From contig NZ_JBFRXN010000002.1 of assembly GCF_040947875.1 (NCBI RefSeq), positions 2,542,001-2,606,000 on the forward strand: 64,000 nucleotides of DNA. Direction: 5' to 3'. Below, one piece after another: positions 1-10,584 of the stretch. Made by a program: the position numbers and the translations under genes. This stretch comes from Pseudomonas sp. MYb118. Lineage in GTDB: Bacteria > Pseudomonadota > Gammaproteobacteria > Pseudomonadales > Pseudomonadaceae. The notes beneath the pieces are model-generated. The model searched no databases and had not been told where the DNA came from. It saw nothing but the letters and a program-made list of their open reading frames with translations. How positions within the stretch are numbered: the first letter of the stretch is position 1; the number at the start of each line of letters is the position of its first letter.

Positions 1-78
1 AGCGGGCTTGCCCGCGAAGAAGGTGCCAGGATGTATGGCACCGACTGCGCCGGTGTTCGCGGGCAAGCCCGCTCCTAC
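1..78. repeat. REP doublet (inverted REP pair)
   Basis: An REP-type palindrome at 1-18 (AGCGGGCTTGCCCGCGAA) recurs in inverted orientation at about 54-78, followed by the typical CTCCTACAG tail. Such doublets are abundant extragenic elements in fluorescent pseudomonads. A third, diverged copy of the tail (CTGTAGGAGTGGGCT) lies at about 114-128, directly before the stop of the first gene. The window edge may cut the left copy. Confidence 0.8.
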
Positions 79-142
79 AGAAATTTGCGTTGCCCCATAA
101 AACGGCGCGCTACCTGTAGGAGTGGGCTGGGCCGCGCGCCTT

Positions 143-1849
143 TTACCCTTCGATTCGGGTGAACTCGGCCTCGATCAACTCCCCGCTTTGGCGCCATTGC
201 TGGAACTGTTCACGCAGCGTGTTCTGGCTCTGGATAGCATTGCGCACGTCTTCGGCATTGCTTTGCAATGAGGCATAGTCCGGGAAGAATTGGGCCTCGA
301 AGCTTGGGTCGTCGATAAGGGCCAGCACTTCTTCACGCTGATCGTTGAAGTTGTTCTCCATCTCGACGAGCGCCAGGCGGAACTGATCTTCGCGCTTCTT
401 GCGCTCGTAGCTGTCCCAGGCCTCCAGTGCCAAGCCAGCCACCGAAAGGATGCCATTGAGGTTCTTGGCCAGGTTCACCGCACCCCATGGCTGGAACTTG
501 AGGGTCTTGCCCAGATCCACACCGAACGTCTTGGCCGCGCCGACGATGCCATCACGGGCTGCCAGGATGCTGCCGTTGTTGATGAACTTGCCCTTGACCA
601 CGTAGTTCAAGCCCTGCTTGCCCAGGTCGATCACGGTGCTATTGAAGTGGTCTATCTCCGAGTCGAAGCTGAGGCGCATGCGGGAAAGCTCCTGGCTGAC
701 ACCATTGAGCTGGCGCTCAAACTCGTTCTTCAGACGAGTGTTGACCATGACGCCGTCGCGACCTATTTCATGCTCGAAGAATTCCTGGAAGGTTTCCTGG
801 GTCAGGCCCTTGGTGCGCAGGATCAGCCCGGCAAAGTAACGCGCCACGAACTCGCGCAGGCCTGTGCGCACTTCGCTTATCTGGCCCTCGGCGCCATTGA
901 GCTGGCGAGTGAGGGCACGGTTGACGCCACTCAGGCGCTCCACTTCATCACCCAGGCGCTGGTCGTTCTCCACCGCTACGGGCAACTCCTTGTGCAGCAC
1001 GTCGAGGATGACGCTCTTGCGCGCCTGCTCGACGATTTTCGCCGGCCCGCCACTGGCCTGGATCTTCCCGGTAGTGGCCTGTTGCAGGTTGCCGATATGC
1101 GACAGTGCCTTGAACTTGGTCAGGCGTTCGAGCCAGTAGTCGGTACCCATGTCGAACGGGTTGGCGGCGACCGCAACAATGCTCAAGGCTGCTACTTCCG
1201 CGTCGGTGGCAGCGATGCTCTCGCGCAGACGGGCTTCGACGTTGCTGCGTTTTACCTGCAAGTGCTGGGCATAGCTGTCTTCATCTTCAACATCGGCCAC
1301 TTCGTCGAAGCGGCTGAGCACGAACACCGTGCGCGGCAGCAGGTCAAGGGTGCGGAACAGCCAGTTCAGGTCGTCCTTGTGGCTGTCCTTGATCGGGTTG
1401 GTGGAGTTCATCACATACAGCACCAAGTGCGCTTCGCTGACGTACTTGCGGGTGATGTCCTTGTACTTCTCCATGGCATCGATGTCGGCGTTGTACTGCT
1501 CTTTGAAACCGAACAGCCCGGGGGTGTCGATCAGCACGAAGTTGTTGTCTACGTCGTAGACCTTCACTTCGTTGGACGACTCCTGCTGGCTGATATTCAT
1601 GCTGGCCTTGTCCAGGCGCTCCATCCACGCGGCGGCGATGGAAGTCTTGCCTTCGGAGAAGCCGCCGATCAGGGCAATCTTGAGCTTTTCGGTGGCCAGG
1701 TTCTGGCTGGCGTGTTCGAGCTTGCTCAACAGGCTGGGGTCGATGTTGACGCCCAGCGCGGCACCTTGTTCGAGAAACGCCTGCAGCTTGCCCAGCAGTG
1801 CCAGCGCCTGGTTGTTCTGGTGTTGAAAGCTTTCAAGGGTCGAATGCAT
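143..1849 (-). CDS. Dynamin-like GTPase, second of a pair
   Basis: A 568-aa predicted large GTPase of the bacterial dynamin type. The G1 P-loop GGFSEGKTS is at residues 62-70, the G3 motif DTPG at 108-111, and a G4-like SRFDE at 179-183. The spacing and the long helical region that follows (residues about 270-420, then a hydrophobic, Gly/Ala-rich stretch about 420-480) fit dynamins rather than Era/Ras-type GTPases. It is the last gene of a three-gene leftward operon, 11 bases behind a second, unrelated-looking dynamin-like gene. Paired bacterial dynamins (for example the LeoABC proteins of enterotoxigenic E. coli) act together on membranes. The role here is inferred; the GTPase call is secure, the exact family is not. 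Confidence 0.75.
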   Translation of the reverse strand: MHSTLESFQHQNNQALALLGKLQAFLEQGAALGVNIDPSLLSKLEHASQNLATEKLKIALIGGFSEGKTSIAAAWMERLDKASMNISQQESSNEVKVYDVDNNFVLIDTPGLFGFKEQYNADIDAMEKYKDITRKYVSEAHLVLYVMNSTNPIKDSHKDDLNWLFRTLDLLPRTVFVLSRFDEVADVEDEDSYAQHLQVKRSNVEARLRESIAATDAEVAALSIVAVAANPFDMGTDYWLERLTKFKALSHIGNLQQATTGKIQASGGPAKIVEQARKSVILDVLHKELPVAVENDQRLGDEVERLSGVNRALTRQLNGAEGQISEVRTGLREFVARYFAGLILRTKGLTQETFQEFFEHEIGRDGVMVNTRLKNEFERQLNGVSQELSRMRLSFDSEIDHFNSTVIDLGKQGLNYVVKGKFINNGSILAARDGIVGAAKTFGVDLGKTLKFQPWGAVNLAKNLNGILSVAGLALEAWDSYERKKREDQFRLALVEMENNFNDQREEVLALIDDPSFEAQFFPDYASLQSNAEDVRNAIQSQNTLREQFQQWRQSGELIEAEFTRIEG

Positions 1850-1860
1850 GTTGCAGTTCC

Positions 1861-4050
1861 TTATGCGTTGAGGTCGCTGGCAAGTTTTTGCAGGCCCAGG
1901 TGCGCGGCTTCAAGCTTGCGCTGGATATGCCTGGCCTGGCGGGCGGGTTGATGCAGGACGCTGTCAATGTGCCGGATCTTGTCTTTCAGCGGCGGCAGTG
2001 CTTGCTTGAGGGTTTTCTGGAAACCTTCGCGGATGGCCTCGCAGGCTTGATCGAGGTTCTTGTCGGTGGCCTTGCGTTGTTGGCCTTTCTTGTAATCGTC
2101 GTCAAAGAAGCCCCACACCGACTTGACGAGGCCGATAAGCAGCGTGGCCACGCCGATGCTCATCATCACCCAGCCTACCGGGCTCCAGAACAACGCCACG
2201 CCGCCGGCCAGGGTGGCGAGCAGGCTCACTACGTTGATGCCGTTATCGATGTTCACATTCAGGTTGAAGTCGCTGGCCAAGCGGGTCTTGCCGATTTGCG
2301 AGTAGCCGTCGAGCAGGTCTTTGGCATGAGCTTCGAAGCGCTGCACGATATCGCTGACCTGGTTCTGGAACCGCTCGACTTGTTTGTCGAGCACCGCAGG
2401 CAGTTTTTCTTGCAGGGCGGCTTGCTCACTCTCGAATACCCGTTCGAGCGTGGATTTGAATTCGTCGTTGCTGATGTTGCTTTCAATGCGCTCGTAAACG
2501 CGGTTACGCACGTTCTCTTCGAATTGACCAATAGACTTCTCGCCCTCGTTGGCGAGTCGGCTGTTGAGCGATGTGAAGGCGATCTGCAATTGCTCGCAAG
2601 CGCTCTCGGCCTCTTCTTTGAGCTTCCTGGCCAGTGGCACGAACTGTTTGTGCTGGATGACCGCGATTTCCTCGCACACGTGGGTGACGGCCAATTGCAC
2701 CTTGTTCATGTTCGAACGGCGGATCTTGGCCTTCACGTCCGTCACCAGATCATGGGTGAGGTGCCGGTAGAACTGCTTGATGCCAGACTTCGTCAGCAGG
2801 TCGTCCGCAGGCATGGCATCAAGGAACTTCTTGCGGCTGGCCGCCGCTGTGGAGCGCGGTACCAGGCATTCGGCAGCGGCGTAGAACGCTGGCAGTGCAC
2901 ACAGGGTCATGCTGCGGCGGTAGTGGCCCTTGAGCTGTCCGGCCATGACCTGGTCGAGGTTGTCCAGGCTGGTTTGTTCGTCGGCACTGACCAGGTTTGG
3001 TTTGTCGAGGGCGATGGGGTTGGTGATGCGCTTGTTGTATAGCGTCCACACTTCCGTCTGCGCATCCAGTTGCGCCTTGATCTTCTCCAGCGTGCCAGGC
3101 CGCCCGGCGTCGCCTGACTGCGGCGGCGCTGCTTTGGAGGTGACGTAGAACACCGCGTGGGCACGCTTCACCGCCTTGTCGATTTGCTCGCTGACTTTGC
3201 TTTCATCGCCCTCGATACCGGGCACATCGAGCAGTTGGAACTGCTGCCCAGCGCTTTCGAAGGTGTAGGCCTGGGTTTCACGGGTGAAGTCGGCGCGGCC
3301 ATCGCCGATGATGCGACCGTCTTCGAAGGCGGCCAGCTGCTGCAGGTTGTCGAGAGCGCTGGCGTGGCGCTGGTTCTGCTCGCCGAGTTGTCCTTGAAGT
3401 TGCTCGCTTTGCTGGCGCAGCGTGGTCAATTCGGCGTCACGCTGCACGGGCAATACCGACGCGCCGGCCTTCAACTGCACCAGCGCGATTTCCTCGGGAA
3501 GCTTGCGCAGCAGGTTGAGGATGCGCTGGAACAGGTTTGCGTTGCGCTTCTGTTCTTCGATACGTGTGCGCAGGGCCTCTTCCTGCAACTGTTGCTCGAC
3601 CTGGCGTTGGTCGTGGCGGGCGTCGGCGGCGAGCACCTCTGCTTCGGCCTGGGCCAGGCGCGAGATCAACGAGGCGATTTCCCCTTCCAGCGCCTGTAGC
3701 GCTGCTTCACTCAGGCCCGACTGCTGTTGCAGATCGAGGAACTGCTGGCGCTGGGCCTGCTTGGTGCTTTCCTTGAGCAGGATGCGCAAGGTTTCGATCA
3801 GAGTCGACTTGCCCGCGTTGGTTTCGCCGTAGAAAGCCACCGTGAAGGTCTTGTGCTCGGCGTTTTCCTTCAGCTCGAGAATAGCGCTGGTCAGCGCCTG
3901 CTCGATCTCCTTGAGCTTGTTTTGGGCATCCGCCTGGGCAGAGGCGAGGCTGGCGTCGTCAGCGCTGCGGCCCAGGGCGCTGAGCAGCGCGCCGACATGG
4001 TCGGTGAGTTTGAGGTAGAGACCTTCGGGGAGGTCTTCGGCTGCAGTCAT
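1861..4050 (-). CDS. Dynamin-like GTPase with coiled-coil insertion and membrane segment
   Basis: A 729-aa predicted dynamin-family GTPase. G1 is GETNAGKS at residues 75-82 and G3 is DVPG at 275-278. Between them, residues about 95-235 form a charged, heptad-like coiled-coil region, so the two motifs sit about 200 residues apart, far more than usual. A canonical [NT]KxD G4 is not obvious; YNKR at 338-341 is the nearest candidate and lacks the Asp. A long helical part follows, then a hydrophobic segment (about 600-645, GINVVSLLATLAGG onwards) that is probably a membrane paddle or hairpin. The gene is 46 bases downstream of the hydrolase gene and 11 bases upstream of the second GTPase gene. The start ATG at 4050 has GGAAG about 8 bases upstream. 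Confidence 0.75.
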   Translation of the reverse strand: MTAAEDLPEGLYLKLTDHVGALLSALGRSADDASLASAQADAQNKLKEIEQALTSAILELKENAEHKTFTVAFYGETNAGKSTLIETLRILLKESTKQAQRQQFLDLQQQSGLSEAALQALEGEIASLISRLAQAEAEVLAADARHDQRQVEQQLQEEALRTRIEEQKRNANLFQRILNLLRKLPEEIALVQLKAGASVLPVQRDAELTTLRQQSEQLQGQLGEQNQRHASALDNLQQLAAFEDGRIIGDGRADFTRETQAYTFESAGQQFQLLDVPGIEGDESKVSEQIDKAVKRAHAVFYVTSKAAPPQSGDAGRPGTLEKIKAQLDAQTEVWTLYNKRITNPIALDKPNLVSADEQTSLDNLDQVMAGQLKGHYRRSMTLCALPAFYAAAECLVPRSTAAASRKKFLDAMPADDLLTKSGIKQFYRHLTHDLVTDVKAKIRRSNMNKVQLAVTHVCEEIAVIQHKQFVPLARKLKEEAESACEQLQIAFTSLNSRLANEGEKSIGQFEENVRNRVYERIESNISNDEFKSTLERVFESEQAALQEKLPAVLDKQVERFQNQVSDIVQRFEAHAKDLLDGYSQIGKTRLASDFNLNVNIDNGINVVSLLATLAGGVALFWSPVGWVMMSIGVATLLIGLVKSVWGFFDDDYKKGQQRKATDKNLDQACEAIREGFQKTLKQALPPLKDKIRHIDSVLHQPARQARHIQRKLEAAHLGLQKLASDLNA

Positions 4051-4096
4051 GGTGTCTTCCTATCTGACGTTGGTTGCGCTTGCTGCGGTGGATGTC

Positions 4097-5554
4097 TCAG
4101 CGGTGTCTGAACCCACGCTCGCTCCCCCAGTGAACCCGCGCAAAAAACACCACAGCCACGGCGGGCACCAAAGCCGAGTAACCGGGTTTCAGCGCGGTCT
4201 TGAAATTAGTCATCCAGCGGCCGGCTAAATGTTTGCCCAGTAACTCGGGCAACGCCGACAGCATGTTCCAGCTCGCCAGCTGCGTGATGTTGAGCGCCCC
4301 GCCGGTGACTGTCAGCGTTTGGGAGGTTTGCACCTCCGGAGCAGAGGCTGGAGTCTTGACGTAGGAGGCCAACGTCAAGCGCTCAGCCAGTGCGTCGACA
4401 TGGCTGAAATAGGTGTCCGCAGGCATGGCCTTCACTGCGGCAATTGGCGAACTGCTGAAGGCATGGCCATCCGGGAACGCGTTGTCGAACACTTGCCGAA
4501 TCAACAGCGCCTCCAGCTCCACGACGGCACCGCAACGTTGCCGGTCATTGCCCAGGTCGAAGTGCTCCACCAGCATGTCCAGCAGCGCGGCGTAGCCAAT
4601 GCCCCGGCCCCGCACGAAATTCACCATGCAGTGACCACCCAGGTGCTGCATTTCACGGATGAAGGAGTGCAGCGGCTGTTGCTCGTCGATGCTGGTCCAA
4701 CTGCTGGTTTTGAGGTGTTTGATACCTTGGGCCAGTACCTCCTGCGGAACGCCCTTGAGCAGGCCATACAGCAGGACGTCATTGAGCACCGGGTCTTGCA
4801 ACTGGGGCTGGCCGAGTTGTTGGCCGTTAAAGCCGGCAAACTGCGTGCGCATGAGCACGTCATGCAGTTTCGGCCAATAATCCAGGTGGCCGAACCTGGT
4901 CATTTCAACGTTATCGAAGGGCTCGACTTCATGCCGCCCCAGGCATTTTTCATCGGCATTGAACAGCAACACAACGTCCGACTTGGAGTAGGCGTTAATT
5001 ACACGTTTCGCGGTGTCCTTCAACGCCTGCGCTTCGTCCTCCGACACCTCCACAGCCGCAGCCATCAACAGCACGTCATTGATGACCAGGTCGCACGCAT
5101 CGCGGTTTTGGGCCAGTTTGCGCAGCGCGCTGATCACCACACGTCCGCCCAAAGAGTGGCCGACAAGGTTTACGTGGGTGACGTAAGGGTAGTGCTCCAG
5201 CAGGTATTCCATCAGCTCATCGAGCAGAGCTTCGCCAACCAGATTCGCGCGTTTGCGGGACATCGCGAAATGCACGGCCCTGTCCCCGGCAAACGCCACC
5301 AGCGGTGCTGCCGGATGCAGACGCGAGGCGCCGAAAATAACATTGCGCGAAAGCTTGCCGATTGAACCGAAGTGACTGGATTCCCAGAACATCAGCAGAT
5401 TGATATCGGCATTCAGGGCCTGCGGAATCTGGCTGACCAGCAGTGCCCGATCGGTGAAGTTGTGGCCCGCGGAATAACCGTGGATAAACACGTTGGCGGT
5501 GGTGGTATTGCTGTTGAAGGATTGGGTGGTGAAACTGAAGTGCTGGGGGTTCAA
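4097..5554 (-). CDS. Alpha/beta hydrolase of the dynamin operon
   Basis: A 485-aa protein whose first half is an alpha/beta-hydrolase fold. FIHGYSAG (residues 23-30) is the oxyanion-side strand, and GHSLGG at 132-137 is the nucleophile elbow with Ser134. Downstream, VINAYSKSDVVL and RFGHLDYW look like the regions supplying the catalytic Asp and His. The second half (about 250-485) is unrecognised. The fold resembles the DUF726/DUF900-type hydrolases that act on lipids or esters, but the substrate cannot be read from sequence. It is the first gene of the leftward operon with two dynamin-like GTPases. The start is a TTG at 5554 with GGAG upstream; no ATG fits the conserved N terminus. Confidence 0.7.
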   Translation of the reverse strand: MNPQHFSFTTQSFNSNTTTANVFIHGYSAGHNFTDRALLVSQIPQALNADINLLMFWESSHFGSIGKLSRNVIFGASRLHPAAPLVAFAGDRAVHFAMSRKRANLVGEALLDELMEYLLEHYPYVTHVNLVGHSLGGRVVISALRKLAQNRDACDLVINDVLLMAAAVEVSEDEAQALKDTAKRVINAYSKSDVVLLFNADEKCLGRHEVEPFDNVEMTRFGHLDYWPKLHDVLMRTQFAGFNGQQLGQPQLQDPVLNDVLLYGLLKGVPQEVLAQGIKHLKTSSWTSIDEQQPLHSFIREMQHLGGHCMVNFVRGRGIGYAALLDMLVEHFDLGNDRQRCGAVVELEALLIRQVFDNAFPDGHAFSSSPIAAVKAMPADTYFSHVDALAERLTLASYVKTPASAPEVQTSQTLTVTGGALNITQLASWNMLSALPELLGKHLAGRWMTNFKTALKPGYSALVPAVAVVFFARVHWGSERGFRHR

Positions 5555-5740
5555 GGGCGAGAGCTCCGTGCTAGGGCGCGATCCACAGGGGGCTTAGCAT
5601 GTCAGGCTGGGTGGCAAACTGCCAGCCTATCCTCTCGTCTACGTTGCAGCGGGGTTTGAGGAATAGTATTTGTGCTTTTTTTGAGTGATTCGCGGCTTTA
5701 GAGTGGTGCAACGATACACTTCTAAACGCGGGTTGGACTT

Positions 5741-5759
5741 GCCGGGGGGATTTGAACCC
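5741..5759. repeat. Distal attachment site (att) of the ssrA island
   Basis: Perfect 19-base copy of the ssrA 3' end without the remainder of the tmRNA gene; it marks the far boundary of the island. The following bases (GCGTC versus CCGTC) match apart from one position. Confidence 0.85.
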
Positions 5760-5818
5760 GCGTCTAACTCCTTAATTACAGGGGCTTCATACTGGAGGCT
5801 GGCATAATGCTGTCATTT

Positions 5819-6331
5819 TCAAGCGTCTGCATCTCTTTCATGCGCTTCTCTGCGCGTGTGCAGGTCGTCTATGAAAAGATAATTAGCGTAAATCACGCTC
5901 ACGACTGCAGAGCACTGTACGAGAGTAAGAAAAATCACGATCCCAGCGCCGATAGCTTTAATTGCCTCACGATATTCGAGGTAAATTGGCATCCCTGATA
6001 TTAAAAGTTTCAGTAGATAGATTGCCGTTATACAAATCGCCACGGACCCGGACTCCATAATACTTCCAACAATGCTTTCTAGCCTGCGAGTGTCTTGCAT
6101 TGTAGCCGTAAAGTCCGCAATTTTAATTTTGTTAGGGTCTTGTAGTCGAGTAATAGCGTTGGGGTAAACAAAAGCTATCCAAATGCCCATGATCGTGAAA
6201 ACCATGCCGGAAATGGCTAGCAGGGTACTGCAGTAATCTTTGAAGTCCGAGTACGTGAAAGTGGAGTTTTGCCAAAATATTAACGCGCCGAATGAAACAG
6301 CGACTAGAGCCATGATTGATAATTTAACCAT
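5819..6331 (-). CDS. Four-helix membrane protein, putative effector of a two-gene module
   Basis: A 170-aa protein of unknown family with four predicted transmembrane helices, at residues about 5-20, 34-55, 95-114 and 124-152, and charged loops and tail (ending HTRREAHERDADA). No signal peptidase site is evident. Its ATG overlaps the stop of the upstream 356-aa gene by 8 bases (ATGGTTAA), so the two are translationally coupled and probably made in fixed proportion. The base composition is AT-rich relative to the core. Small multi-helix proteins coupled to a larger soluble partner are a common layout in phage-defence modules, where they perturb the inner membrane. That role is inference from layout only; an unrelated regulatory membrane protein is possible. 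Confidence 0.7.
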   Translation of the reverse strand: MVKLSIMALVAVSFGALIFWQNSTFTYSDFKDYCSTLLAISGMVFTIMGIWIAFVYPNAITRLQDPNKIKIADFTATMQDTRRLESIVGSIMESGSVAICITAIYLLKLLISGMPIYLEYREAIKAIGAGIVIFLTLVQCSAVVSVIYANYLFIDDLHTRREAHERDADA

Positions 6332-7394
6332 TTGCTTCGGCCTGTTTTGATAACATGTCTTTTTTGAGAGGGGCTAAGTAGCGATCTCGACTAGACTTGA
6401 TGGTAGCATAAATATCGGGAGCCGAAAAAACGGGTTTGCCATTATCTTCTATCGAAATGTGCTCCGTAAGTCTATATTTGCTCGCCCAAACAATCTTCGT
6501 AGGCTTATTATCCAGAATAAACCCTACATCCTCCCAAACATTCGCGTCATGATTTGTGGCGTGTGTTTCGATAATGCTTTCTATTTCTTTGGTTGTGGGT
6601 TGAGCCTCAATGCGTAGTTCAATTTTTCGAGATGAATTATCTTCAGCTGAAGCGAAAGGAACCGTAAATTTCTTGAAATAACTTGCGAACCCTTTTCGCT
6701 TGTCAACTTCTTTAATGGACACTGTTTCGCGTCTGACTATCTGGGTTACTCGTCTTGCAAGGTTTTGCATCTCCGCTGATGAGGTGGACAGGGATTTCAT
6801 AGATAAGTCAAATTGGAAGTAATACTTGAACTTATCCTCGTCCTCGCCGATCATCTCGTATCGTTTGAAACCATGGTCGGTTGAGCTGGTTTTATATTCT
6901 GGCAAGTCTACTCTGAAATCTATGCAGCCTCTGACCCAGTCTTGAAACATGGATGAGTCTGTGCGTGAGTTGTCGAATTTTATTGATGCAACTATATTAA
7001 GTTCGGGGATCACCCAGTAATAGCATGGACGCCCCCAAATCATTTGTTTGTTAGTTTTCGTTTTTGTTTGCTCGACCGCTTGCTCAATAGATCCATCAGC
7101 GTTTACTGTTATTCCGTAGAGTGGGCCGTGTCGATCAGAATCTCCTTTCCACAATACTAGCAAATAGTCTCCGTTGTCTTTGTCATGATGCACTGCATGG
7201 CAATAACACGCGGTTTTGTTTTTATTCCTGCCGGCGTCCCACGGATTTGTCGCTTCAAAATTACGGCCGCCCTTCCAACTCTGCAGCTTTGAAAATGTTT
7301 CAGCCAGGTCCAAGCCTTTAGGCGTTTCGCTGAAGTGGCGATAGAGGCCGCACTTGTTTGCGTTAAAGAAATTAATATATCCGCTTTGAAGCAT
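6324..7394 (-). CDS. Unknown 356-aa soluble protein, partner of the four-helix membrane protein
   Basis: A 356-aa protein with no recognised domain. It has no signal peptide or membrane segment. The N-terminal half is rich in aromatics and Gly (MLQSGYINFFNANKCGLYRHF, a GDYLLVLWKGDSD strand, and MIWGRPCYYWVIP), suggesting a beta-rich fold. The C-terminal half is more charged and helical. The start ATG at 7394 has AAGGA eight bases upstream. The coding region is AT-rich and uses codons unlike the core genes, consistent with transfer. The stop overlaps the start of the membrane protein gene. The layout recalls Kiwa-type systems (a four-helix protein plus a larger DUF4868 partner), but the gene order is reversed and I do not recognise DUF4868 in it. 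Confidence 0.7.
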   Translation of the reverse strand: MLQSGYINFFNANKCGLYRHFSETPKGLDLAETFSKLQSWKGGRNFEATNPWDAGRNKNKTACYCHAVHHDKDNGDYLLVLWKGDSDRHGPLYGITVNADGSIEQAVEQTKTKTNKQMIWGRPCYYWVIPELNIVASIKFDNSRTDSSMFQDWVRGCIDFRVDLPEYKTSSTDHGFKRYEMIGEDEDKFKYYFQFDLSMKSLSTSSAEMQNLARRVTQIVRRETVSIKEVDKRKGFASYFKKFTVPFASAEDNSSRKIELRIEAQPTTKEIESIIETHATNHDANVWEDVGFILDNKPTKIVWASKYRLTEHISIEDNGKPVFSAPDIYATIKSSRDRYLAPLKKDMLSKQAEANG

Positions 7395-7446
7395 TCCGAA
7401 AGTCCTTTTAGAGGAAGGTGAGCATTGAAGCTACCACTGAGGATGG

Positions 7447-8010
7447 CTAAGCGCCATACTGACCTTCCGCTCCTATCGTGGGAAGAGCGCTGAAAAGGCT
7501 TTCAGCTTTACTTCCTGCGTGCTCATCTGCTGTTGGCATCCAGCGCCCATAAACCCTTGCAATCATCGTCCAGTCAGTATGTCCCATCTGTCTGGCTACC
7601 CACATCGGATGTTCGCCAGCAGACAGCATCATCGATGCATAGGTGTGACGGGTCTGGTACGGCCGTCGATATCGAACACCGGCCTTCTTCATCGCCGGCA
7701 CCCACATCGTTTTCCGGATCGGCCCGTCGCCAGCCCATCGCTCCAGGGTTCGGGGGTTCTGAAAGACTTCAGCGTCCGCCAGAAATGTGTGGGTCTTCTG
7801 CGCTTTCAGTGCCTCTAGTGCGGGTCGTAGCAGTTTCACGCTTCTGCGGCCGGCCGCAGTCTTCGTAGTCTCCGCCTTTCCCTTTCCGGCCTGGGTCATC
7901 GCGCGGCTCCTCGCACCGTACGAGCCGAACTTGACCCAGCGCATGCTCAACGAATTATCGCCATCACCGACGCCGGCGACCAAGGACTGATCGCATTGGC
8001 TGCGTGCCAA
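7447..8010 (-). pseudogene. Tyrosine integrase remnant (C-terminal catalytic part)
   Basis: From about residue 50 the reading frame matches the C-terminal half of a phage-type tyrosine recombinase: KTAAGRRSVKLL, then RPYQTRHTYASMM (box II His/Arg), RQMGHTDW, and VYGRW with the nucleophile Tyr. The arm-binding domain and the region with the first catalytic Arg are missing, and the first 45 or so residues do not look like integrase. It is therefore a truncated or recombined remnant. It lies in the middle of the island, not next to either att site, which suggests deletion or nested insertions. The frame itself is open, so a short protein may still be made. Confidence 0.8.
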
Positions 8011-8173
8011 GCGTACATAAAAGAAATTAACGCCAGGTAAGTGAGGGTTCTAGCAAAGGTGGCCTTACATCGGACTCGATTGAAGTGAGGCGACGAAGGG
8101 GTCGTCTCTGGTAAAGGATCTCTACTATCGTTCCAGGGCAACTCAATTCCATCGAATAAATGTGGAGGTGGAC

Positions 8174-8557
8174 ATGGAGATCTGGACAACGAATTTTACG
8201 GACGGAACGGGCTATGAAGGCAGGGAATTTAAGCTAACAGTTACGGGGACCGCTACTGATGATTCTGTTGTCGTCGAGTTAACAATCGAAAATGAGGAGA
8301 GACTTTGTGGGTCCGTGAAGTTAACCAAGACAGAGTCGAATATATCACTAACAAAATTAGACCTCGGTTCCTTCAATTTTGTAGCCTGTCTACTAGCCAG
8401 CGGGGGTGGAACACTAGCTCACGAGCTTGGGGACTGTCAGGGGAAGCACGGCTTTAAGCCATTTGAAATTATCGCTTGTATGGCAGCTAAGGGTCATATT
8501 TTAGAGCCTGCAATAACCACTGCATTAATTTCTTGCTGGATCGGAAGTGGGAATTGA
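8174..8557 (+). CDS. Unknown small island protein
   Basis: A 127-aa protein of no recognised family. The N-terminal half looks like alternating beta strands (EFKLTVTGTATDD, VVVELTIENEERL). The C-terminal half has four cysteines and a Gly-rich helix (LASGGGTLAHELGDC, EIIACMAAKG), ending ISCWIGSGN. No signal peptide is seen. I chose the ATG at 8174 because GGAGG lies five to six bases upstream; a GTG at 8162 in the same frame is embedded in that ribosome binding site. It is the only rightward gene in the island and sits between the integrase remnant and two leftward genes. It could be an immunity-like or cargo protein; nothing in the sequence decides this. Confidence 0.55.
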   Translation: MEIWTTNFTDGTGYEGREFKLTVTGTATDDSVVVELTIENEERLCGSVKLTKTESNISLTKLDLGSFNFVACLLASGGGTLAHELGDCQGKHGFKPFEIIACMAAKGHILEPAITTALISCWIGSGN

Positions 8558-8602
8558 ATAAGGTCGACGGTACGCATTCTGGCCCATATGTGAAAGGAAC
8601 CT

Positions 8603-8812
8603 TCACTCTGGAGTCATCAGGGCAGCGAGCGTCAGCTTGATGAACCCCTCGTTCCTGTCGATGGCTTCCAGGGCGCCGCGCACGTTGTCCGCGACTTCGG
8701 CGCCGCCTTGCTGCTCGACCCAGTTGGACAACTCAAGGATGGCGGCCTCAAGGGCCAATTGGTTTTCGTTGATCTTGAAGAGCAGGGAAGGGAGTAGGTC
8801 TGAATTTGGCAT
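8603..8812 (-). CDS. Small helical island protein
   Basis: A 69-aa acidic, all-helical protein (MPNSDLLPSLLFKINENQLAL..., ending TLAALMTPE) of unknown function, of a type often seen next to integrases in Pseudomonas islands. Two in-frame ATGs exist; the one at 8812 has AGAGG seven bases upstream, whereas the one at 8818 would start almost on top of that motif, so I prefer 8812. No membrane segment or DNA-binding motif is visible. Confidence 0.55.
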   Translation of the reverse strand: MPNSDLLPSLLFKINENQLALEAAILELSNWVEQQGGAEVADNVRGALEAIDRNEGFIKLTLAALMTPE

Positions 8813-8921
8813 AGACATGCCTCTGTTTATGTAGGAAAGCGTAGCAGTGACGGCGCCGTGATCCCGAATTTGCGACGAGGCTGCGGTTTAAACGGCGATA
8901 AACCAAGCGTCCCGCTATTTG

Positions 8922-9662
8922 TTAAACGTTGTTCAGCACACTTAAAAGCAATGGTGCTGCTGGTGCGCCCAACAGATATATATTTTGTCCAGTGGACACC
9001 AGATCGTTAATTTTGCCCAAGGTTTCGAAAAAACCTTTAATAAAAATATTGCCAGATTCGTATTCACGTCCAACTGTGGACTGATGACGAGCCATTGATC
9101 CGGCTATCTCATCCAAAGCTTTCTCAAGCGAAACCGATCCGTTCAACCTGTACTCCAACAATGCCGATCTTAACGATTCGAGATGTCGGAGAAATAGTGC
9201 CTTGAGTTCTGGAGCTAATTCGGAAGCCAAGCACTCGTCAAGAAGAACGTCCAACCTAGAAATAAAATCTCTGATGTCTTGAGGCGTTTCTGGAGACTCT
9301 CCTGCGTAAGTCAGGCTTAGAGAATGATCGCCGAACGTCAGCGCGGCAATCACGCTATCGCTTATGTAGGGCTGATACGTGGACCATGCTGCGAGCAAAT
9401 TCATCCGACTGAACAGCCCCTCAATTTTATCGAAAGGTGCTAAAAAAATGGCTTTGTTACCAGGAATAAATTTCTCGGTAGCCGCTCTTGCTTGTGCACA
9501 TAAATTGATTGCATAGAGGATTCCACGCGCCACGCTAATGCTGTCATCAGCCTTGCAGGCGAAGACTGTGCTTAGCGCTTCAATCGTATGCTGATTGTGT
9601 CCCTGCTCGCGTGCAGCGGTCATCAAATCTAAAAGCTGACCCGTTGGGTTGTTCTTTGCCAC
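8922..9662 (-). CDS. Unknown 246-aa island protein next to ssrA
   Basis: A predominantly helical 246-aa protein with no recognised family. The sequence begins VAKNNPTGQLLDLMTAARE and has a hydrophobic C-terminal end (YLLGAPAAPLLLSVLNNV). I chose the GTG at 9662 because GGGAGG stands at a good distance upstream. Reading on to the ATG at 9767 would add 35 residues that run through the predicted ssrA terminator and look non-coding. Codon use is moderately AT-rich. It is the cargo gene nearest to the ssrA end of the island. Function is unknown. Confidence 0.6.
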   Translation of the reverse strand: MAKNNPTGQLLDLMTAAREQGHNQHTIEALSTVFACKADDSISVARGILYAINLCAQARAATEKFIPGNKAIFLAPFDKIEGLFSRMNLLAAWSTYQPYISDSVIAALTFGDHSLSLTYAGESPETPQDIRDFISRLDVLLDECLASELAPELKALFLRHLESLRSALLEYRLNGSVSLEKALDEIAGSMARHQSTVGREYESGNIFIKGFFETLGKINDLVSTGQNIYLLGAPAAPLLLSVLNNV

Positions 9663-9756
9663 CCTTCCTTCCCTCCCTGCTGGGCATACCTTGATCAGAT
9701 ATGCTGATGCTGTCATTAAGCTGGCATAACCGAGCCAAAACCACCCATCTAGGCAC

Positions 9757-9788
9757 AAAAAAGGCACTTGCGAAAACGCTAAGTGCCT
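9757..9788 (-). terminator. Rho-independent terminator of ssrA
   Basis: On the minus strand AGGCACTT and AAGTGCCT form an 8-bp stem around an 11-base loop, followed by a run of T. It lies just beyond the CCA end of the tmRNA gene, inside the island side of the junction, so the island supplied a new terminator on insertion. Confidence 0.75.
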
Positions 9789-9805
9789 GATTTGTATAGC
9801 TAATT

Positions 9806-10199
9806 TGGTGGAGCCGGGGGGATTTGAACCCCCGTCCGCCAGTACTCCGCTGTCGGTACTACATGCTTAGCCGTGTCTATTAAGTTAACCCTCAGCGACC
9901 CGACGGGCAGGGTGCTTTGGGCGAGTTGTGTAAGTTTTAGCCGCTTCGTCCACAACGTACTGCACGGCGATTCTGTTCTATATGACAATCACTTTGGGTT
10001 TACAGACATCCCCTGATGATTGCTGGACCCGAAGGTACCAGAAGGGAAGAGCTAAGGCTGCTTACGCAGCGAGAGCGTATTCCCCGTAGGTTTCGTCATT
10101 GGCAACTATAAGAAGTTGCAACAGTGGATTTACGAGTTCTGTTACCAACTCGGCATGCACCTAAAGTTTCGCAACCGGCGTCGAATCCTAAACGGCCCC
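9806..10199 (-). ncRNA. ssrA: tmRNA (transfer-messenger RNA)
   Basis: The tRNA-like 3' end is seen as GGGGGTTCAAATCCCCCCGG followed by CTCCACCA ending at 9806, and the 5' end starts GGGGCCGTTTAGGATTCGAC at 10199. These two ends pair to form the alanyl acceptor stem, giving a 394-base one-piece tmRNA. It works with SmpB (gene at 19450-19932 in this window) to rescue stalled ribosomes and tag the nascent chain for proteolysis. The 3' end is the integration site of the neighbouring island, and the gene is intact. Confidence 0.95.
10062..10103 (-). other. tmRNA proteolysis tag reading frame
   Basis: Within ssrA the resume frame reads GCC AAT GAC GAA ACC TAC GGG GAA TAC and on to TAA, encoding the tag ANDETYGEYALAA. 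The ALAA end is the ClpXP/ClpAP degron. The tag is longer than the ANDDNYALAA of P. aeruginosa, as is usual for the fluorescens group. Confidence 0.9.
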
Positions 10200-10296
10200 G
10201 AACCCGTTGCTGCGTGTATCGTGTGAGCAACAGGCCTGTGCAGTGTACGCCAACGCGGGCCAGAAGGCCAACCCGAAGGTTGGCCCTGGGCGGTGG

Positions 10297-10584
10297 TCAG
10301 TTTTTGCCGTCCTTGTTCGCGTTCCTCAGTTCCTGGATGGTCTGGGTGGTTTCGGCGATGCATTTTTCGGTGCCTTCCTTGCTGCCCATGGCCTGGTGGG
10401 CCTTGGCTTGCTGGACGCTGGCATCGACGCGGGCCTGTTGTTCCGGGGTCTGGATCTGGGCCTTGGCGTTGGCGATGGTTTGCAGGTTGACCTCGCAGAG
10501 GTCGTCGGTGTTGTTGGCCGCAAACGAGGTGGACGCCATCATGGAAGCTGTAACGAACAGACCTAACAGTACAGAACGTTTCAT
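10297..10584 (-). CDS. Small secreted (periplasmic) protein of unknown function
   Basis: A 95-aa protein with a clear Sec signal peptide (MKRSVLLGLFVTASMMASTSFA, cleavage after AFA or SFA at about residue 22). The mature part is about 73 residues, charged and helical, with two cysteines (DLCEVN and EKCIAE) that could form a disulfide in the periplasm. The ATG at 10584 has a strong AAGGAGA ribosome binding site. It lies downstream of dld with a gap of about 130 bases and is probably transcribed on its own. No family is recognised. Confidence 0.75.
   Translation of the reverse strand: MKRSVLLGLFVTASMMASTSFAANNTDDLCEVNLQTIANAKAQIQTPEQQARVDASVQQAKAHQAMGSKEGTEKCIAETTQTIQELRNANKDGKN

Follow-up and report, generated by a model that had tools for sequence, protein, structure and literature searches.

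An operon that joins an alpha/beta hydrolase to two different dynamin-like GTPases raises the question of what the hydrolase does there. The operon lies in a 64,000-nucleotide stretch of DNA from Pseudomonas sp. MYb118 (contig NZ_JBFRXN010000002.1, positions 2,542,001 to 2,606,000), the whole of which is called the window below. Sequence comparison identifies the GTPases as LeoA and LeoBC, which together make up Eleos, a defence system already catalogued. What is new is the hydrolase, encoded by the third gene. Its link to Eleos is well supported, and no report of a hydrolase with Eleos or LeoA was found among the matches listed in open-licence PubMed Central (PMC). On balance, the operon is probably an Eleos anti-phage system that carries a lipase-like effector module. 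In our judgement, little is settled about the means by which bacterial dynamins stop phage; an enzyme of this kind with a conserved triad, beside or fused to LeoBC, is a testable effector candidate for at least one Eleos branch. The operon has the following parts.

143..1849, minus strand: LeoA, dynamin-like GTPase, 568 amino acids (aa) (PADLOC, NCBIfam, PDB 4aur)
1861..4050, minus strand: LeoBC, dynamin-like GTPase, 729 aa (PADLOC, PF00350)
4051..4096, minus strand: 46-base gap, in which DNA homology with hydrolase-free Eleos loci stops at 4068 (blastn)
4097..5554, minus strand: DUF726 alpha/beta hydrolase (aa 1-243) with a partly JukA-like helical C-terminal half, 485 aa

The three open reading frames (ORFs) are tightly spaced on one strand, as an earlier note on this DNA had proposed, with 11 bases between LeoA and LeoBC and 46 between LeoBC and the hydrolase. 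The hydrolase is the first gene and has a TTG start. A consensus scan of window positions 1-6000 returned no sigma-70 promoter. The guanine-cytosine (GC) content of the operon is 58.7-60.4%. Ratios of nonsynonymous to synonymous substitution rates (dN/dS), from one sequence pair per gene, are approximately 0.11 for the hydrolase, 0.13 for LeoBC and 0.09 for LeoA; values near 0.1 suggest purifying selection on all three genes.

The earlier note knew of no named defence or membrane system with this gene set, a statement that does not hold for the GTPases, which are the Eleos proteins of PADLOC. The PADLOC models cover both established and candidate defence proteins; matching one places a protein in the catalogue and does not test its function. 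The product of 143-1849 matched the LeoA model (PDLC03839, E 2.6e-172) over residues 1-565 of 568, scored 695.9 bits against NCBIfam NF041922 (cut-off 325) and matched the LEOA structure 4aur in the PDB (E 1.3e-61). The product of 1861-4050 matched the LeoBC model near full length (PDLC03841, E 2.8e-159) and PF00350 with 29.2 bits (cut-off 27); no sequence relatives of it were found in the PDB. Both GTPases exceed the Pfam dynamin cut-off, and their G1/G3 motifs, GETNAGKS/DVPG and GGFSEGKT/DTPG, include the two different P-loops that had been noticed before. The G4 candidates SRFD and NKR are a guess from the pattern used. Each protein matches the model of the other weakly (E 1.4e-26 and 6.6e-20), consistent with paired dynamins that are distantly related and not close copies. 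An unnamed dynamin pair is ruled out by these identities. Eleos, which we take to be defined by LeoA and LeoBC, reportedly received a defence assay in the original Eleos study. In the window, a LeoA-family and a LeoBC-family dynamin are adjacent on the same strand, and a single 729-aa LeoBC stands in place of the separate LeoB and LeoC genes of the split type.

The window differs from Eleos as catalogued in its third, upstream gene, a hydrolase whose family is fused to LeoBC in relatives. The available portions of PMC10482375, PMC12629846 and PMC12757443, on Eleos and dynamins, name no hydrolase partner. LeoABC of enterotoxigenic Escherichia coli (ETEC; 4aur; PMC4159319) shares with the window the LeoA family and tandem dynamins, according to the accessible part of that paper, whereas LeoB and LeoC are one protein in the window. 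The suggestion that LeoABC is the nearest analogue and has no such hydrolase is borne out by the LeoA family match and by the main text of PMC4159319, in which the word 'hydrolase' occurs 0 times.

The hydrolase contains the serine nucleophile elbow GHSLGG and matches PF05277 (DUF726) with 50.9 bits (gathering score 22.6). It has no match to the LeoA or LeoBC models, and no sequence relatives were found in the PDB. The Ser134-Asp193-His223 triad is intact and is kept in all 35 aligned sequences. Among 192 hydrolase-bearing proteins, Asp193 and His223 are present in every one and Ser134 in 190, the other two not being covered at that position. Fold matches of the predicted model cover residues 1-243 in a whole-model comparison. 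These features point to a lipase-like protein, presumably with lipase activity. The C-terminal half includes a partial PADLOC match to JukA (residues 290-359 of 485, E 9.7e-7), and a second comparison gave a JukA-like stretch of 102 columns with probability 95.8. JukA belongs to Juk (JukA/JukB), an anti-jumbo-phage system whose effectors, acting at the early phage vesicle, include phospholipases (PMC13282480, in the part available). The window differs from Juk in the short extent of the match (~70-100 residues) and in that no JukB was found among the five window proteins scanned with PADLOC; dynamins are unmentioned as effectors in the available text of PMC13282480. The hydrolase may link Eleos with Juk-type sensing.

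JukA likeness also occurs in a more distant Pseudomonas family of DUF726 hydrolases (L064:5753-7348 and relatives, L060-L065), with the elbow GHSLGAR. The one 30% relative scanned for the domain, L064, matched JukA across 210 residues (E 3.7e-36), and an Nramp transporter gene adjoins in L064 and L065. Another partner domain, DUF1232 (PF06803), is found with short DUF726 hydrolases in clusters P0087 and P0088.

If the hydrolase belongs with the dynamins, the genes should travel together, and the earlier note had asked whether they do. In 398 Pseudomonas genomes searched at E 1e-40, the hydrolase was found at 30 loci, spread over 29 genomes. An initial search of 298 Pseudomonas genomes at E 1e-10 gave it in 64, 44 of these with the 30% family alone. 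The search beyond Pseudomonas, in 369 genomes of the class, returned one genome, the window's own. LeoA is present in 19 of the 398 genomes, which rules out a core Pseudomonas locus; one genome (G139) holds just a fragment, and LeoA is interrupted in G254. At the 18 LeoA loci without the fragment, the hydrolase is fused to LeoBC in six and adjacent in five, the window included, making it a likely true partner of the dynamins, as had been surmised. One further genome (G059) has its hydrolase elsewhere. The other six (G017, G047, G143, G179, G234, G679) lack a nearby hydrolase, and none was found at E 1e-40 anywhere in these six genomes. Hydrolase and LeoA occur together in 12 of 398 genomes versus ~1.3 expected (Fisher p 7e-11, or 2.7e-11 without the LeoA fragment, kinship uncorrected). 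Without the six fused genomes the figures are 6/12 and p 1.5e-5, likewise uncorrected for kinship.

Seen from the hydrolase, 14 of the 30 loci, the window included, have it beside or fused to dynamin-like GTPases, of which there are three kinds or more. Six are fused (G078, G228, G193, G134, G254, G764), four have the hydrolase convergent with split LeoC-LeoB-LeoA (G077, G149, G683, G758) and three have it beside other dynamin-like GTPases (G008, G235, G225). By tblastn, dynamin relatives were detected at 13/13 of the other dynamin-associated loci and at 0/16 of the remainder. A hydrolase tree was built from six 30% relatives and all of the 30 loci except the broken G191 copy, 35 rows in total; on it, having or lacking a dynamin neighbour requires four changes. 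The idea of a new three-gene set thus stands in part: the genes do associate, but the set is a variant of the named Eleos, and of the 398 genomes the window's alone shows this order of three separate genes. The remaining Leo loci have the hydrolase fused, convergent or elsewhere, or lack it. A second operon of separate genes is hinted at by clusters P0015 (hydrolase) and P0267 (LeoBC, 50%), whose longest contigs are equally long (54428) and whose sources agree.

The fusion of hydrolase to LeoBC is in frame, and the fused rows form one clade of the hydrolase tree (support 100/99). A fused-protein query returned 148 clusters, with the hydrolase domain in 100 of the best 120; the names of the fused clusters are Pseudomonas, Stutzerimonas, Metapseudomonas and one Stenotrophomonas. 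With the LeoBC of the window as query, 1489 clusters were returned. The fusion is, as read from these protein lists, a large branch, and the branch of the window's LeoBC is mostly without a hydrolase as fusion. The hydrolase is therefore an optional module. In the six fused forms examined, the hydrolase runs straight into LeoBC with no JukA-like half between, and the fused clusters retain the triad. A predicted model of the fused protein was of moderate quality (predicted local distance difference test 74.8, predicted template modelling score 0.46) and gave no domain arrangement; its best PDB matches were bacterial dynamins. As single chains the fused proteins are of use for biochemistry, since the ETEC study was unable to obtain enough LeoB and LeoC (PMC4159319, available text).

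Two IMG/VR contigs (L112, L113) both carry the fused hydrolase-LeoBC with LeoA, and L112 is not independent because it is identical to L055. The window's own LeoBC had no match in IMG/VR, and LeoBC had none in phage records. Among plasmid records, LeoBC occurs in eight, of which the one examined (Raoultella) carries both LeoBC and LeoA and lacks an annotated hydrolase, and the hydrolase occurs in one, partial. A record labelled Pantoea sp. Ap-967 (L093) is identical across 14 kb to the fused locus of G134 (L057), which the genome set places in Pseudomonas, and so is not independent of it either.

The partners of the hydrolase also change. Its closest relative in the 398 genomes (82%, G008) stands beside different dynamins: at L039:3204-8080 a WYL regulator lies upstream, and the hydrolase precedes three GTPases (289, 587 and 544 aa) and a 197-aa protein. 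These GTPases score less well against the LeoA or LeoBC models (E 6e-45 to 1.9e-19), indicating that dynamin partners have been exchanged. At L051:2151-8824, the two proteins after the hydrolase (568 and 747 aa) are dynamin-like, with weak matches to the Leo models. Since the family is also found with other sets of dynamins, and some Eleos loci lack it, the hydrolase appears both optional and exchangeable.

How such a system might act can be proposed from these relations. LeoBC and LeoA would assemble as a pair on membrane that an infecting phage has deformed or breached. The hydrolase would be brought there by contact with LeoBC, would be built in where the two are fused and, in the window, might also be recruited through its own JukA-like half and hydrophobic C-terminus. 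Upon GTPase assembly, it would cleave a membrane lipid or another ester, and destruction of the phage entry or replication membrane, or of the host inner membrane, would cause phage production to fail. The dynamins would thus concentrate an optional, exchangeable effector on phage-altered membrane. The proposal is reasonable given two precedents, the phospholipases that work with JukA and the GTPase RAB18, by which TMCO4, an orphan lipase of the DUF726 family, is brought to the endoplasmic reticulum membrane (PMC10641524, available part). TMCO4 belongs to PF05277 (PMC11878206, available part), so the likeness extends to the hydrolase family and to membrane recruitment through a GTPase; RAB18 differs in being a small GTPase, in a eukaryote, with no fusion. 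In Bacillus subtilis, the dynamin DynA likewise counters phage at the membrane; it is a single double-dynamin, and a hydrolase partner goes unmentioned in the accessible text of PMC8844932. A bolder version, which we hold tentatively and consider doubtful, is that the dynamin pair is a GTP-driven delivery platform for a phospholipase on phage-remodelled membrane, a 'lipase Eleos'. The JukA-like module would then join two defence families, the system would be a bacterial counterpart of RAB18-TMCO4 and the hydrolase would be portable across at least three kinds of dynamin.

Several observations weigh against an effector module of Eleos. The fold matches of the hydrolase model are esterases and lipases in general, and its C-terminal half resembles JukA in part. 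The three closest Eleos loci examined (L090-L092; LeoBC 77-78%, LeoA 85%) have no hydrolase: their DNA is homologous to window positions 143-4068 with no hydrolase trace (blastn, window 1-10300). These loci, in P. kitaguniensis, P. putida ASAD and P. fluorescens PS918, consist of integrase, LeoBC and LeoA at ssrA, 2.3-5.3 kb behind the transfer-messenger RNA (tmRNA) gene, with a full tyrosine integrase nearby. Moreover, just two of the best 120 clusters nearest the window's LeoBC are fused, in lists that show fused forms and not separate neighbours. Because of these two results, the hydrolase may be a recent arrival or an optional companion in the window's LeoBC branch. From the other side, 16 of the 30 hydrolase loci have no dynamin within the 13-17 kb examined, and 13 of these 16 occupy one shared site among metabolic and transport genes, flanked by SDR and thiolase genes and, at the opposite end, by AraC, RIO-kinase and P-type ATPase genes. 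No defence genes were found at this site among five flanking proteins scanned at one locus. The shared-site genes (13 of 398 genomes; L041-L048, L103, L104, L106-L108) encode a stand-alone DUF726/JukA-like hydrolase, and the G191 copy is broken by a stop.

The same observations sustain the strongest rival, a plain two-gene Eleos upstream of which an independent hydrolase has landed in a defence hotspot, the two acting separately and the hydrolase perhaps forming its own Juk-like system. The near ssrA loci without a hydrolase, the 82% relative beside different GTPases and the many dynamin-less hydrolase loci all fit it. Set against this rival are the well-supported clade of LeoBC-fused forms, the predominance of fusion among the best clusters of the fused query and an adjacency to dynamins far above chance, and we consider it rather unlikely, if worth keeping in view.

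A second rival is that the operon serves membrane maintenance or vesicle release and not defence, the dynamins sealing or budding membrane while the hydrolase edits lipids. The link of ETEC Leo proteins to vesicle secretion counts for it and against an Eleos effector: according to the available text, leoA and leoB knock-outs cut vesicle release by about half (PMC4159319). B. subtilis DynA delays lysis through membrane support (PMC8844932, available part). However, LeoA is rare and patchy, and often lies in islands with restriction, BREX or ZorAB-like genes, for which reason a housekeeping role is not expected; the explanation is improbable. That the hydrolase is instead a sensor or switch, setting off the dynamins by cleaving an ester from phage or host, would suit its JukA-like half in the window and its place as first gene, but the fused forms keep the triad without that half, and this is very improbable.

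The surroundings fit the preferred reading of an Eleos system with an effector, and the accessory, defence-type neighbourhood proposed in the earlier note was recovered. Two features lie on the upstream side of the operon.

5734..5758, minus strand: imperfect copy of the tmRNA 3' end (21/25 bases), likely the distal end of an ssrA insert
5819..7394, minus strand: candidate defence pair PDC-M18A and PDC-M18B, within the ssrA insert and not in the operon (PADLOC)

The tmRNA itself is at 9806-10199. Because the copy of its 3' end stands between, the operon is just outside the distal end of the insert, as had been thought, and the possibility that it is cargo of the present insert is ruled out for the window. 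The insert carries the PDC-M18 pair (E 6e-44 and 3e-17), whose GC content is 43.5%. Positions 7447-8010 hold a weak integrase C-terminal remnant (PF00589, 23.0 bits, below the cut-off of 27.1), and no full-length integrase was identified among the listed ORFs of the insert.

On the other side, a REP-like (repetitive extragenic palindromic) inverted doublet is visible by eye at ~1-110, and beyond it are ZorA-like and ZorB-like genes, a type II restriction pair and a WYL regulator. The ZorA-like (660 aa) and ZorB-like (OmpA, 216 aa) pair (L059:11322-13967) lies left of the window and is convergent to LeoA. Behind it are two genes (447 and 329 aa) without Pfam or PADLOC match, and this is possibly a reduced Zorya-like system. 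No left-flank counterpart beyond matches of <60 bases was found in 24 genomes (relatives, own included), so an empty site could not be shown.

At other loci, the flanking ORFs scanned were hand-picked. WYL regulators adjoin five of the 14 hydrolase-dynamin loci (L039, L054, L055, L058, L101) and also an Eleos locus without hydrolase (L083). Flanks of the hydrolase-dynamin loci further include BREX genes (L057), type I restriction genes (L050, L053, L105), a DrmD-like helicase (L051) and GmrSD genes. The chosen ORFs gave an AraC regulator at L109 and helicase-type matches at L056, L052 lying outside the scan.

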